Program-made: the position numbers and the translations under genes
DNA from: Candidatus Poribacteria bacterium
GTDB lineage: Bacteria; Poribacteria; WGA-4E; WGA-3G
Length of the DNA: 64,000 nucleotides
Reading direction: 5' to 3'
Assembly: GCA_022827625.1 (NCBI GenBank)
Contig: JAJEIE010000029.1
Span: 62,001-126,000, forward strand
The notes under the pieces: model-generated
What the model saw: the letters and a program-made list of their open reading frames with translations, nothing else
Told to the model about the DNA's origin: nothing
Database searches by the model: none
Shown: in pieces, positions 19,566 to 37,336 of the stretch
Layout of the letters: each line of letters opens with the position of its first letter
Position numbering within the stretch: position 1 is the stretch's first letter

Positions 19566-20921
19566 ATGTCACAATCCGCACATCTTTATAAACGGGTCGC
19601 GATCCCAGATGCTTTCCTGAACAAGACAGAGGGAAACGCATGGGGCGGTGACATCCGCATCGGCGATCTGACGGGTGATGGCACCGTTGATTTGTTGGTA
19701 TACAAGTCGCTCGGCGGCATTCATCCGTGTTTTCTCGGGGCATTCACACTCGAAGGCGAACCGATCTGGTCGTTTGGTGATAAGCATCTCGAAATCAGAG
19801 ACGCAGATGCCAAGGACACACCCCTAACGACGCTCTCTCCTGACCGACCGGGTCCTGTTTCTATTCACGACATCGATGCGGATGGACAGACAGAGGTTAT
19901 ATGTTTCTGGGTAGACCCCGACGCCCCTGAGGTGAGTAAGTGGGATTTGTCGGCAATCGGTTTGATAATTTTAGACGGTGCCACGGGTGCTGTTAAACAG
20001 ACACTTGCACCTGAGGCGTTGCGTCAGTGTAACGCGTACGCTGAAGGCGAACTTCATATCCCGAACTACGTCCATCAACGCTTGATGATTGCTAACTTCT
20101 CTGGAAACGCGCAACCGCAAGATTTTGTCGTGAAGGTCGGCGTGAATGTGCTGGCGTTTAACCACAAACTGGAATTGCTCTGGCAATACACCGACGAGTG
20201 GTTCCGTTATCCAAAGCATTCCGCATACATCCCTGCAGTCGGCGATTTTAACGGCGATGGACTTGATGAAGTTAACGGCGGCAATTTTGGGATCGCTGCT
20301 GACGGCACGGTGCTCTGGAATCACTACTTCGGTGCGAACATGGATTCGGTTTTAGTTTCGGAGTGGGACGGCAATGAACGTGCGATCCTCTCAGGGGGTG
20401 GACAGGTCGTCAATGCTGAAGGGCATCCACTTCTCTCACTCGGTTTTGATACTGTCCCGCACGGGCAAGAGATCCGGTGTGGCAGATTGCTTCCAGATGT
20501 ATCTACGAATGCGTTGGTTATCCGTTATAATGGACATCACCCCGACTTGATGGTAGTAGATAACGACGGACAGATTAGAAGTCGATTTCGCGTTGATGAA
20601 ACCCCGAACAATACAGGTTTAGAGATTATCCGTTGGCACGGTGGGGAAAATGTCGAATTGACTTACAGTCCCGCTGCACTCTATGATAGTGCTGGAAACA
20701 AGGTTGTAACATTCCCTGAACTTCCACCACCTACCGGCGGCAAGATGGGTTGGTATCACTGTTTCCCGGCGGATGTCTGTGGCGACGGACGTGATGAGGT
20801 CATCCTCTACGATCCTTATAGCGATGCTGTCTATATTTATACGCCTACGCCTTTTCAACCCGACCTGTTTGGTGGGTATCAGCACACCGAGCGACAATAC
20901 AATACACGGTTAATGGATTGA
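19566..20921 (+). CDS. FG-GAP/VCBS-type beta-propeller protein without signal peptide
   Basis: 451 residues. At least four calcium-type D-x-[DN/T]-x-D-G loops are spaced along the chain: DLTGDGTVD (34), DIDADGQTE (about 101), DFNGDGLDE (about 227) and DVCGDGRDE (about 408), each followed by strand-like hydrophobics, as in FG-GAP/rhamnogalacturonan-lyase-like propellers. No export signal is visible, which is unusual for this class. Its TGA stop overlaps the ATG of the sulfatase-fold gene (TGATG), so the two are translationally coupled and may act together. Confidence 0.75.
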   Translation: MSQSAHLYKRVAIPDAFLNKTEGNAWGGDIRIGDLTGDGTVDLLVYKSLGGIHPCFLGAFTLEGEPIWSFGDKHLEIRDADAKDTPLTTLSPDRPGPVSIHDIDADGQTEVICFWVDPDAPEVSKWDLSAIGLIILDGATGAVKQTLAPEALRQCNAYAEGELHIPNYVHQRLMIANFSGNAQPQDFVVKVGVNVLAFNHKLELLWQYTDEWFRYPKHSAYIPAVGDFNGDGLDEVNGGNFGIAADGTVLWNHYFGANMDSVLVSEWDGNERAILSGGGQVVNAEGHPLLSLGFDTVPHGQEIRCGRLLPDVSTNALVIRYNGHHPDLMVVDNDGQIRSRFRVDETPNNTGLEIIRWHGGENVELTYSPAALYDSAGNKVVTFPELPPPTGGKMGWYHCFPADVCGDGRDEVILYDPYSDAVYIYTPTPFQPDLFGGYQHTERQYNTRLMD

Positions 20922-24913: not shown

Positions 24914-25756
24914 CTACTCGAACAACGCTGCATCGGGTTGACCGCGATAGAGGACGACACTATACTGCAGTTTTAAGGTCTCATCTGGGGCAAGATGGAG
25001 CGGTTCGTAGTAGACGAGTGAGGGGTGGATTAAGCAGTAGTTCTCGCGGTTGCGGACCCACCACGTCGTCGGATAGCGCGGGTTATCGGGATGGTCGACG
25101 ATCGCAACGCCGTAGGTCTGGTTGTCAGTGGGATGCTGTGAGGTGAAACTACACCAACGGCTCTGTTTGCCGAAGATGTCCATCGGTTCGGTGCGTCCAT
25201 CGGCATCCAACAATTTGCCGGGTGTGATGATATTGTCGAATCGGATTGCCATACCGCTGTAGAATCTACCCTCTGCCCCAGGCTCGCCGCGTCGTAAGTC
25301 TAAGACGACTTCACGTTCGTTCGGTTGAAGCGTCACTGACACAGAAATTTTCATGGCATCTGCTGTGGGTGGATGGACGGTTATCTCTCGTTGCTCCGTG
25401 AGATGCGTTGTGCCTTGCCAATCTATCCAGGCGTTCTCTGCTGTTAGACTTGCGCTCTCGGCATCTGCACTTTGTGCGACAATCCGTTGATGGACGATTT
25501 TGCCGAAACCTGTCGGATCGCTACCGGGTCCGGGTTGTTCCCAAAAATTGACTTCATTGACCTTTTTCCAAGCGACCCATAGCCCTTGATGATGCACATG
25601 ATCGCCGGGTTCGTTCATTGTGAGCGGTGGTGCGCCGGGTAGGTTTAATGGGTGGCAAAAGGGACGGTTACCGTCTTCGGGGAAATGGTAGCCTAAGACC
25701 TGTTGTCCGTCCCAAGCGATGGTTAGGCTGTATTGTGATTGTGATAGTGAGAACAT
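24914..25756 (-). CDS. DUF6807 (PmoA-like) family protein
   Basis: 280 residues, SD AAGGAT. The chain has the family pattern FCHPLNLPGAPPLTMNEPGDHVHHQGLWVAW, with the conserved GDHxHHxGLW, then FYSGMAIRFDN, GRTEPMDIFGKQSRWC and YCLIHPSLVYYEPLHL. This family is often named 'methane oxygenase PmoA' in databases, but it is unrelated to the membrane monooxygenase; it is a beta-sandwich, galactose-mutarotase-like family common in Planctomycetes and Poribacteria near sugar oxidoreductases. The histidines may bind a sugar or metal. Cytoplasmic by lack of signal peptide. Confidence 0.8.
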   Translation of the reverse strand: MFSLSQSQYSLTIAWDGQQVLGYHFPEDGNRPFCHPLNLPGAPPLTMNEPGDHVHHQGLWVAWKKVNEVNFWEQPGPGSDPTGFGKIVHQRIVAQSADAESASLTAENAWIDWQGTTHLTEQREITVHPPTADAMKISVSVTLQPNEREVVLDLRRGEPGAEGRFYSGMAIRFDNIITPGKLLDADGRTEPMDIFGKQSRWCSFTSQHPTDNQTYGVAIVDHPDNPRYPTTWWVRNRENYCLIHPSLVYYEPLHLAPDETLKLQYSVVLYRGQPDAALFE

Positions 25757-25801
25757 TTTTATCCTTAAAGGGCAATTTTTATACGAGTGAATAAGTTGAC
25801 A

Positions 25802-26065
25802 TCATGAGAAAAAACGTTCATAATCATCATGATGACCTATCCAGAACCAGGTAACCGTATCAGCCTTCAAGATGCCAACTGCTCGATAACCTTGAGTGAT
25901 CCTTACAGACCAAATATTTTCTTTGTTATTAATACACTTAAAATGCAATGAATTATGAAATGGATTTGAAATCCATAAGCGATAAGCCTTCTTAGCTTGA
26001 TTTCTGAGCATTTCATCAAGAGTTCGATAAGCCGCCCAGAACGAAGGTAATGTTGCCGATTTCAT
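25802..26065 (-). CDS. RelE/HigB-like toxin
   Basis: 87 residues. FWAAYRTLDEMLRNQAKKAYRLW followed by HFKCINNKENIWSVRITQGYRAVG and the ending TVTWFWIGHHDDYERFF match the RelE/ParE-superfamily toxins of the HigB-like branch, which cut mRNA at the ribosome. Its start overlaps the stop of the antitoxin gene by 4 nt (ATGA). Confidence 0.82.
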   Translation of the reverse strand: MKSATLPSFWAAYRTLDEMLRNQAKKAYRLWISNPFHNSLHFKCINNKENIWSVRITQGYRAVGILKADTVTWFWIGHHDDYERFFS

Positions 26066-26292
26066 AGCCGATCCAAATCCATCGGTTCAGCTTTCCCTTC
26101 GGCGATCTCTTGTTTAGCACGACGCGCAGCTGCAACAAGCTGGTCTTGTGTATTATTGAAAGCGATATCCCAGCGAAGTTCGTCCTGTAACTCTGCAACA
26201 TACTCACGCAGATGTTCTACAACCCGATCTTGCATTGCTTCAGGTAGTGACTCCATCATCTGGGTAACCGTGGTAACAGCATTAGAAGCCAT
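26062..26292 (-). CDS. Antitoxin partner of the RelE/HigB-like toxin
   Basis: 76 residues, SD AGGAGG. Mostly helical: VTTVTQMMESLPEAMQDRVVEHLREYVAELQDELRWDIAFN, then a charged C-terminus AEPMDLDRL likely to wrap the toxin. There is no clear ribbon-helix-helix or HTH motif. It is assigned by its position upstream of and overlapping the toxin gene, and by size. Confidence 0.75.
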   Translation of the reverse strand: MASNAVTTVTQMMESLPEAMQDRVVEHLREYVAELQDELRWDIAFNNTQDQLVAAARRAKQEIAEGKAEPMDLDRL

Positions 26293-35520: not shown

Positions 35521-36282
35521 ATGCGTTTAAAGGACCATGTATGTATTATCACAGGTGGTGGGAGCGGGATCGGTCGCGGTGCTGCCCTCACGATGGCTGA
35601 AGAAGGGGCAACGGTTGTCATCATCGGTAGAACAGAATCGAAATTAGAATCCGTCAAAGATGAGGTCACGGCAGCCAGTGGGACAGCAGTCAGTTACGCG
35701 CTCGACGTGGCGGATTACGATGCTGTTGAACAAATGGTTGGGGGTGTCCTTGATAAATTCGGACGCATTGATGTGCTTGTGAACAACGCTGGACACAGTT
35801 CACATCACCGCCGGATTCTGAACACGCCGCCTGAAGAGATGCGCTCGGTTATTGATTCAAATCTGATTGGCACGTTTTTCTGCACGAAAGCAGTCGTACC
35901 AGCGATGTTGGCGGCGAAATCGGGAACGATTATCAATATCTCGTCGCTTGCAGCGGTTACGCCGGGTCCGTTCAGTGGCTTCGCTTACGGTGCGGCAAAG
36001 GCGGGTGTTATCAACTTCACAGAATTTCTCAATGCGGATTTACGAAATACGGGTATCCGTGCAAGCGTGGTGGTTCCTGGCGAGGTCGCAACGCCGATTC
36101 TGGACAAACGTCCGGTTCCGCCGGATGCTGAGGCTCGCGCGACGATGGTAGATGTTGACGAGACCTCAGCGGCAATTCTACTGATCGCAACGTTGCCCCA
36201 ACGGAGCAACATTCCAGAGTTAGTTATCCGTCCAACAATGCACCGTAACATGACAGGTGAAATTGTTGAATTAGACGACTGA
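35521..36282 (+). CDS. Short-chain dehydrogenase/reductase
   Basis: 253 residues from the ATG at 35521 with GGAGG at 8 nt; upstream in-frame sequence is non-coding. TGGGSGIGRGAALTM (cofactor loop), NNAGHSS, Ser in INISSLAAVT and Y-x-x-x-K in FAYGAAKAGV complete the classical SDR catalytic set. GRTES after the second strand suggests NADP preference. The ending is VELDD. Cytoplasmic oxidoreductase of unknown substrate; converges on the DUF3179 gene with a 25-bp gap. Confidence 0.9.
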   Translation: MRLKDHVCIITGGGSGIGRGAALTMAEEGATVVIIGRTESKLESVKDEVTAASGTAVSYALDVADYDAVEQMVGGVLDKFGRIDVLVNNAGHSSHHRRILNTPPEEMRSVIDSNLIGTFFCTKAVVPAMLAAKSGTIINISSLAAVTPGPFSGFAYGAAKAGVINFTEFLNADLRNTGIRASVVVPGEVATPILDKRPVPPDAEARATMVDVDETSAAILLIATLPQRSNIPELVIRPTMHRNMTGEIVELDD

Positions 36283-36307: not shown

Positions 36308-37336
36308 CTAACGATAGATAGAGGTTTCAGGATAATAGCGTGCCCACGCGAACCAGTAGATATTGACAGCAGGCAGACGCTCCAACTGTGTTCCTTTTTC
36401 CTTACCAGAGGTTGCCTCACCTGTAATGAGATTCCAGCGCGTCCCGGTATTATCTTCTACAAAATGCTTGTCTTGGGCACTAAAGGTTCGGATATCCCGT
36501 GCGACGTTCCGCGTAAAGACGGCTGTCGCAAATGACCCTCTGTCGTGAAAAATCAGGAGCGGGACTTCGCCAAGTGTATCGTTGATGACGGCATTTTTTG
36601 CGAAGTGGGTCAATGGGTAAGCGCGGAACTGGGTGGTGCCATCTTTCGCTGGCACTTGAACACCAATCACAAGGGACTTATTGGGTAACCTATCATCGGT
36701 GTACGCCATTCCACTCACACCTGCACGTTGACTGGCGTGATAGTCGGCATAGACATCTTGGTTTAGGCTTTCACGCATCCCGGTTCTGGTAGGCACAGAT
36801 AAAACGAGTGTGCTCGGATAATTCAGCTGCCATGTTTTCCATGCAATCTGTGGTGTGGAGACCAGTGGTTTCAACCGCTTACCCTTTAGGGGTCCCTTTA
36901 TCGCTTCCCCTGTTATATGCGACCAGAGCGTGCGGGTCTGATGGTCATACATTAATAGGGCATCGCGCCATAATTTGCCGCTGACACCGAAGGTATAGGT
37001 CTCACCGTCAAGTTCCCGGCTATACACGATAGCCGTTTTGCAGAGCGGTCACCAAGTCGTGGCAATTTTTTGTTCACCGACAACGTCGTTGACGATTTCG
37101 TGTCCATTGAGTAGATAGAGCGAATAGGCACGGCTTTCGCCCTTGAAGGTTACACCGATAACAGGTGCATCGGGGTCAAGTTGCGCCTCGTTGGCGGATA
37201 CAAATTGTGGATCTGTAATTGCGGGGATAGCATCAAAAGGTAATAAAGTTCGGATTGCGTCATCGGTATAATCCGCGGCCGTTGCGTAAAAGGTAACAAA
37301 AAGAAGCAGTGAGAGGGTGAGGGTGTAGTTTTTCAT
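36308..37336 (-). CDS. DUF3179 protein with predicted selenocysteine (UPLC motif)
   Basis: Read as one 342-residue protein through an in-frame TGA (37049-37051). A signal peptide is present (LTLSLLLFVTFYATAA), then DPDAPVIGVTFKGESRAYSLYLLNGHEIVNDVVGEQKIATTW, TGA, PLCKTAIVYSRELDG, FGVSGKLWRDALLMYDHQT, LWSHITGEAIKGPLKG. In DUF3179 proteins the same place reads CPLC; here the first Cys codon is TGA and the second Cys is kept, so residue 96 is best read as selenocysteine. The frame is intact on both sides, no start or SD exists for the downstream part apart from a GTG inside the motif region, and a SECIS-like hairpin follows. The alternative is a nonsense mutation. DUF3179 has no established function; the motif suggests redox chemistry in the periplasm. 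Confidence 0.8.
37017..37051 (-). promoter_or_regulatory. Candidate bacterial SECIS element
   Basis: On the minus strand the TGA is followed by 13 nt and then CGGCTAT-CGTGT-ATAGCCG: a perfect 7-bp stem with a five-base loop carrying GU at loop positions 2-3. The apical loop starts 21 nt after TGA. This agrees with the bacterial SECIS consensus (short stem-loop just downstream of UGA with G among the first loop bases). Confidence 0.75.

Follow-up and report, generated by a model that had tools for sequence, protein, structure and literature searches.

Proteins of the DUF3179 family (Pfam PF11376) with the motif UxxC/T have been listed as a selenoprotein family (PMC9312934, PMC13188914). Where these two papers treat the family, they credit DUF3179 selenoproteins to Zhang and Gladyshev (2007), from a symbiont of Olavius algarvensis. 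In addition, a literature search for Poribacteria with selenocysteine (Sec) found two papers, one of which describes SelA and SelB as occurring together in many bins of sponge symbionts. Here, we analyzed a DUF3179 gene in a 64,000-nucleotide stretch of a Candidatus Poribacteria genome, hereafter the window. The initial annotation had regarded a selenoprotein of this family as unreported, which proved incorrect in the light of the above listings. Comparison of sequences strongly supports the gene as a new member of an already known selenoprotein family.

The DUF3179 gene and its in-frame TGA

The locus was the one given in the initial annotation; its strand, left unstated there, is minus, with the ATG at 37336 and the end at 36308. 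On translation of the read-through frame, codon 96 was the sole in-frame TGA across 342 aa, and its context (...EQKIATTW-TGA-PLCKTAIVYSRELDG...) was the same as previously quoted. A profile search with PF11376 gave 267.4 bits for residues 35–338 of the read-through protein (E = 2.2e-79; curated cut-off, 27 bits). Since profile positions 2–292 of 292 were matched, the protein belongs to DUF3179 along the whole domain. The pieces before and after the TGA each matched the adjoining part of the profile, in agreement with the earlier view of a DUF3179 gene open on both sides of a single TGA. A search of the genome by family found one DUF3179 copy, this gene, and NCBIfam contained no model for its protein. 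The conserved neighbor was a convergent SDR gene ending with a TGA at 36282, and no functional partner was seen in the gene neighborhood examined. The gene is one that standard annotation would split or truncate. The features described below are summarized in Table 1.

Table 1 Features of the DUF3179 locus (window coordinates)
Feature	Position	Strand	Basis
Predicted DUF3179 selenoprotein gene, one in-frame TGA	36308..37336	-	342 aa read through, PF11376 2.2e-79
Predicted N-terminal hydrophobic export signal, residues 1–20	37277..37336	-	translation
Repeat 1 of DUF3179, residues 52–180, carries predicted Sec	36797..37183	-	hhalign
HEIVND motif, residues 79–84, ahead of Sec loop	37085..37102	-	conservation in alignments
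TGA codon 96, predicted U of UPLC	37049..37051	-	TGC/TGT or TGA in aligned homologues
bSECIS-like hairpin, 7-bp stem, CGUGU apical loop (37024–37028)	37017..37035	-	folding, synonymous freeze, covariation
Repeat 2 of DUF3179, residues 216–342, without UPLC motif	36311..36691	-	hhalign

Conservation and predicted decoding of codon 96

A DUF3179 match with one inside TGA was present in 69 of the 85 Poribacteria phylum genomes, including 66 of the 73 from the order of the window (the latter counted by hand from the table of sampled genomes); the Sec form is therefore nearly fixed across this order. Among aligned loci, codon 96 was TGA in 80 and TGC or TGT in 9. In a wider set including Acidobacteriota, where the TGA was kept as well, the column held 125 Sec, 47 Cys, and 1 Asn; some copies in this set are nearly identical, and some genomes entered it by two routes. 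The Asn belongs to one DUF3179 relative (L202), which has NPLC at this site. The in-frame TGA thus stands opposite a conserved Cys of homologues. Both the Cys column and the close homologues with TGA at the same codon, which the initial annotation had anticipated, were found.

This conservation bears on the possibility that the gene is a pseudogene or contains a sequencing error, the TGA being a real stop or a misread TGC or TGT. One relative (L109, from a Poribacteria metagenome-assembled genome) is indeed broken: it has a frameshift and then enters a short tandem repeat where the contig ends, and the search of its genome gave no tRNA-Sec above the cut-off. However, the same TGA, in otherwise intact frames, recurs in Acidobacteriota and in dozens of separately assembled genomes from the order, and the third codon positions over the downstream hairpin are frozen. 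This explanation retains only a marginal probability and is, on sequence evidence, refuted, as dozens of species have kept the TGA. Apart from L109, none of the three refuting outcomes set out in the initial annotation arose (no selB/selC, reads with TGC or TGT at this codon, unrelated stops and frameshifts in homologues of sister genomes). The proposal that the TGA ends a 95-aa protein and that the downstream part restarts at GTG 37027 is very improbable. A 239-aa ORF does run from this GTG; nevertheless, the two parts jointly make one DUF3179 domain, and AlphaFold modeled the read-through protein as a single confident, beta-rich fold (pLDDT 94.4, pTM 0.90). Furthermore, the Cys homologues are single proteins, and the inside stops listed for DUF3179 matches in Poribacteria and Acidobacteriota were all TGA and never TAA or TAG.

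Genome-wide reassignment of TGA to Trp or Gly found no supporting point, is already refuted, and has virtually no probability left. Homologues carry Cys, rather than Trp or Gly, at this codon, and TGA ends other genes of the window, most of whose frames close soon after. Its use as a normal stop by neighbors, claimed previously, was confirmed at 20919 and 53808; following these and the stop at 36282 of the SDR gene, the frame closes within 0–12 codons. The TGA at 25802, lying between a ParE-like and a DUF6807 gene, also argues against reassignment. Flanked by long open frames, it was considered as a second selenoprotein candidate and rejected, as these are two separate genes; the ParE-like toxin-domain gene is directly upstream of the DUF6807 gene (window 24914–26083, minus strand).

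A search of the host genome for the Sec machinery found all four genes that the initial annotation had named for this purpose: selA (595.4 bits), selB (347.7 bits), selC (78.1 bits, with a UCA anticodon), and selD (362.4 bits). The absence of selB and selC, foreseen there as a refutation, was not the case; the two adjoin, about 160 bases apart. The selD of this genome (G000:C40:54720-55643, L020) is a selenoprotein gene too, with TGA as U in CAGUASK. SelB scored over the cut-off in 76 of the 85 phylum genomes; four genomes (G024, G033, G060, and G061), which are 73–83% complete, had a TGA copy without SelB over the cut-off. Among genomes reached by name, tRNA-Sec was found in those of the TGA forms L104, L105, and L107, and the best tRNA-Sec place in the genome of the Cys form L106 held only an ordinary tRNA. 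L110 is a Cys form, yet its genome has a tRNA-Sec.

The predicted 7-bp hairpin with a CGUGU loop was found where it had been placed, starting 13 nt after the TGA (CGGCUAU-CGUGU-AUAGCCG, 37035–37017). Published bSECIS rules (PMC13188914) specify a stem of 4–16 bp, a loop of 3–9 nt with G in its first two positions, a distance of 16–37 nt from the UGA, and a minimum free energy of at most −7.5 kcal/mol. The hairpin conforms to all of them: its stem is 7 bp, its apical loop is 5 nt with G at position 2 and lies 20 nt past the TGA, and its energy is −7.9 kcal/mol (the score of the identical hairpin in L105). An Rfam search of the window gave no match at gathering thresholds. The single-sequence fold of 55 nt was not unusual by itself (z = −1.26), and the significance of the hairpin comes from comparative evidence. 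Given the same amino acid, codon identity at codons +5 to +9 was 1.0, 0.96, 1.0, 1.0, and 1.0 among 46 dereplicated Poribacteria copies (<90% identical), against a mean of 0.48 for 219 other codons. In 30 diverse sequences, the 7-bp stem was paired in 95.2% of cells, compared with 23.8–44.3% in slid registers. The stem covariation score was 0.503, whereas slid registers reached no more than 0.105; both sides had changed in 41 cells, and compensatory changes were seen across phyla. This covariation is partly amino-acid change (AIVYSR, GVVYAR) and not wholly independent of the protein, a weakness from which the synonymous freeze is free. Of 87 distinct Sec loci, 59 had a rule-abiding hairpin, compared with 6 of the 44 Cys loci and roughly 3% of shuffled sequences; with the stem scored alone, the other 28 Sec loci fall short of the −7.5 kcal/mol limit, many of them through a G-U pair. 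In 16 distinct Acidobacteriota copies, the hairpin was 5 nt nearer to the TGA. At this nearer position, L152, L156–L163, and L165–L171 (UTLC, USLC, or UVLC) had a different, almost frozen hairpin (CCACACCGGUCUGGUGUGG).

The selenocysteine reading of codon 96 is strongly supported by these comparisons because the Sec machinery is present, the TGA is kept in relatives, other members have Cys, and the hairpin is constrained and covarying; the earlier prediction of a selenoprotein was thereby upheld. SelB with Sec-tRNA(Sec), recruited by the hairpin, would decode UGA 96.

Repeats, fold, and possible role of selenocysteine

Of the 125 Sec forms, 121 had a hydrophobic segment ahead of the domain, which points to export of these proteins. 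The two repeats of the protein were homologous (hhalign probability 99.8%, E = 3.6e-30), indicating an internal duplication. Three Poribacteria relatives (L098, L100, and L186) have an insert between the two repeats, and tblastn splits them near residue 233. Invariant positions of alignment A1 were Sec/Cys 96, W138, G148, and L155; in the HEIVND motif, N83 and D84 were at least 90% conserved in A1 and the H was at least 90% conserved in A2.

No solved structure matched the protein by sequence. Rieske ferredoxins headed the PDB fold matches both of the whole model (E = 6e-3) and of the Sec repeat (E = 0.16), and no match fell below 1e-3. The model did not show a thioredoxin fold: it was beta-rich, and no thioredoxin was among the 50 PDB matches listed. 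With Foldseek, the model also matched an uncharacterized giant-virus protein (A0A1V0SD44, Indivirus ILV1; E = 2e-8; target TM-score, 0.61). With hhalign, repeats 1 and 2 gave P = 0.033 and 0.003 against Rieske, respectively. In the profile alignment of P = 0.033, CPLC fell on the first Rieske motif (CPHxG) and FGVSG on the second. Of the Rieske ligands (CxH, CxxH), the first Cys alone had a counterpart, three of the four being without one. The literature search found no paper joining DUF3179 with Rieske. We regard the apparent Rieske kinship, drawn from sequence and model comparison, as a lead rather than a result. It is possible, though rather doubtful, that DUF3179 represents a Rieske-like fold, duplicated and exported, from which the iron-sulphur cluster has been lost, with Sec/Cys at the former first ligand site; if true, an electron-transfer scaffold would have been turned into a selenol enzyme.

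Phylogenetic analysis of 89 proteins, with the Sec/Cys column left out of the tree building, gave a minimum of six Sec/Cys switches. None of the 32 Cys rows lacked the second Cys, whereas 17 of the 56 Sec rows had A, T, S, or V in its place (Fisher p = 1.8e-4, in a test that ignores kinship); five changes were counted on the tree. Sec therefore seems able to act without a neighboring thiol, and the loss of the second Cys from many Sec proteins speaks against a plain disulphide of the CxxC type. The main rival for function is that the protein is a selenoprotein in which Sec/Cys 96 holds a metal or prosthetic group instead of serving as a redox nucleophile. The weak Rieske-like fold puts the motif near the first cluster ligand site, the Cys forms have CxxC, and loss of the second Cys is confined to Sec forms, all of which would suit such binding. 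On the other hand, three of the four Rieske ligands are without a counterpart, the UPLA, UPLT, and UPLS forms are without a second thiolate, and redox activity is typical of most known Sec residues (PMC9312934). Metal or prosthetic-group binding is thus unlikely, though it keeps appreciable weight. In the favored reading, Sec would stand at the site of an invariant Cys in repeat 1 of the beta-rich tandem pair, and its selenol may act as the single nucleophile or electron-transfer residue of a redox reaction in the envelope. A selenol nucleophile would probably be resolved by an external thiol; where the motif has a second Cys, this residue would help, but it would be dispensable for Sec forms. 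Taken together, the gene very probably encodes an exported DUF3179 selenoprotein in which UGA 96 would be read as Sec through SelB and the hairpin in place of Cys; we infer a redox role for the selenol.

Comparison with known systems

New here are the Poribacteria-wide fixation of Sec, the repeated Sec/Cys switches, and the loss of the second Cys in Sec forms only, together with the predicted export signal, the internal duplication, the weak resemblance to the Rieske ferredoxin fold, and the placement of Sec near the presumed site of the first cluster ligand. The switches and the Sec-only loss provide a natural test of the capability of Sec versus Cys, outside the thioredoxin fold, and the biochemical function of DUF3179 is now open to testing.

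The present protein shares with the known DUF3179 selenoproteins (UxxC/T) the Pfam family, the TGA-encoded Sec, and its first position in UxxC. It differs from them in coming from Poribacteria, a phylum that neither PMC9312934 nor PMC13188914 names, in the near fixation of Sec across an order, and in having relatives with UxxA, UxxS, and UxxV. The Cys DUF3179 proteins (CPLC, CTLC), some of which are from the same phylum, are homologous over the whole length but have Cys for Sec, always kept the second Cys in our sample, and have far fewer rule-abiding hairpins. Rieske ferredoxins and the Rieske-fold NirD led the PDB fold matches, both for the model and for its Sec repeat, and CPLC aligned on CPHxG. 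However, these fold matches were weak, and DUF3179 differs from both in being a tandem duplicate without the Rieske His and the second-motif ligands.
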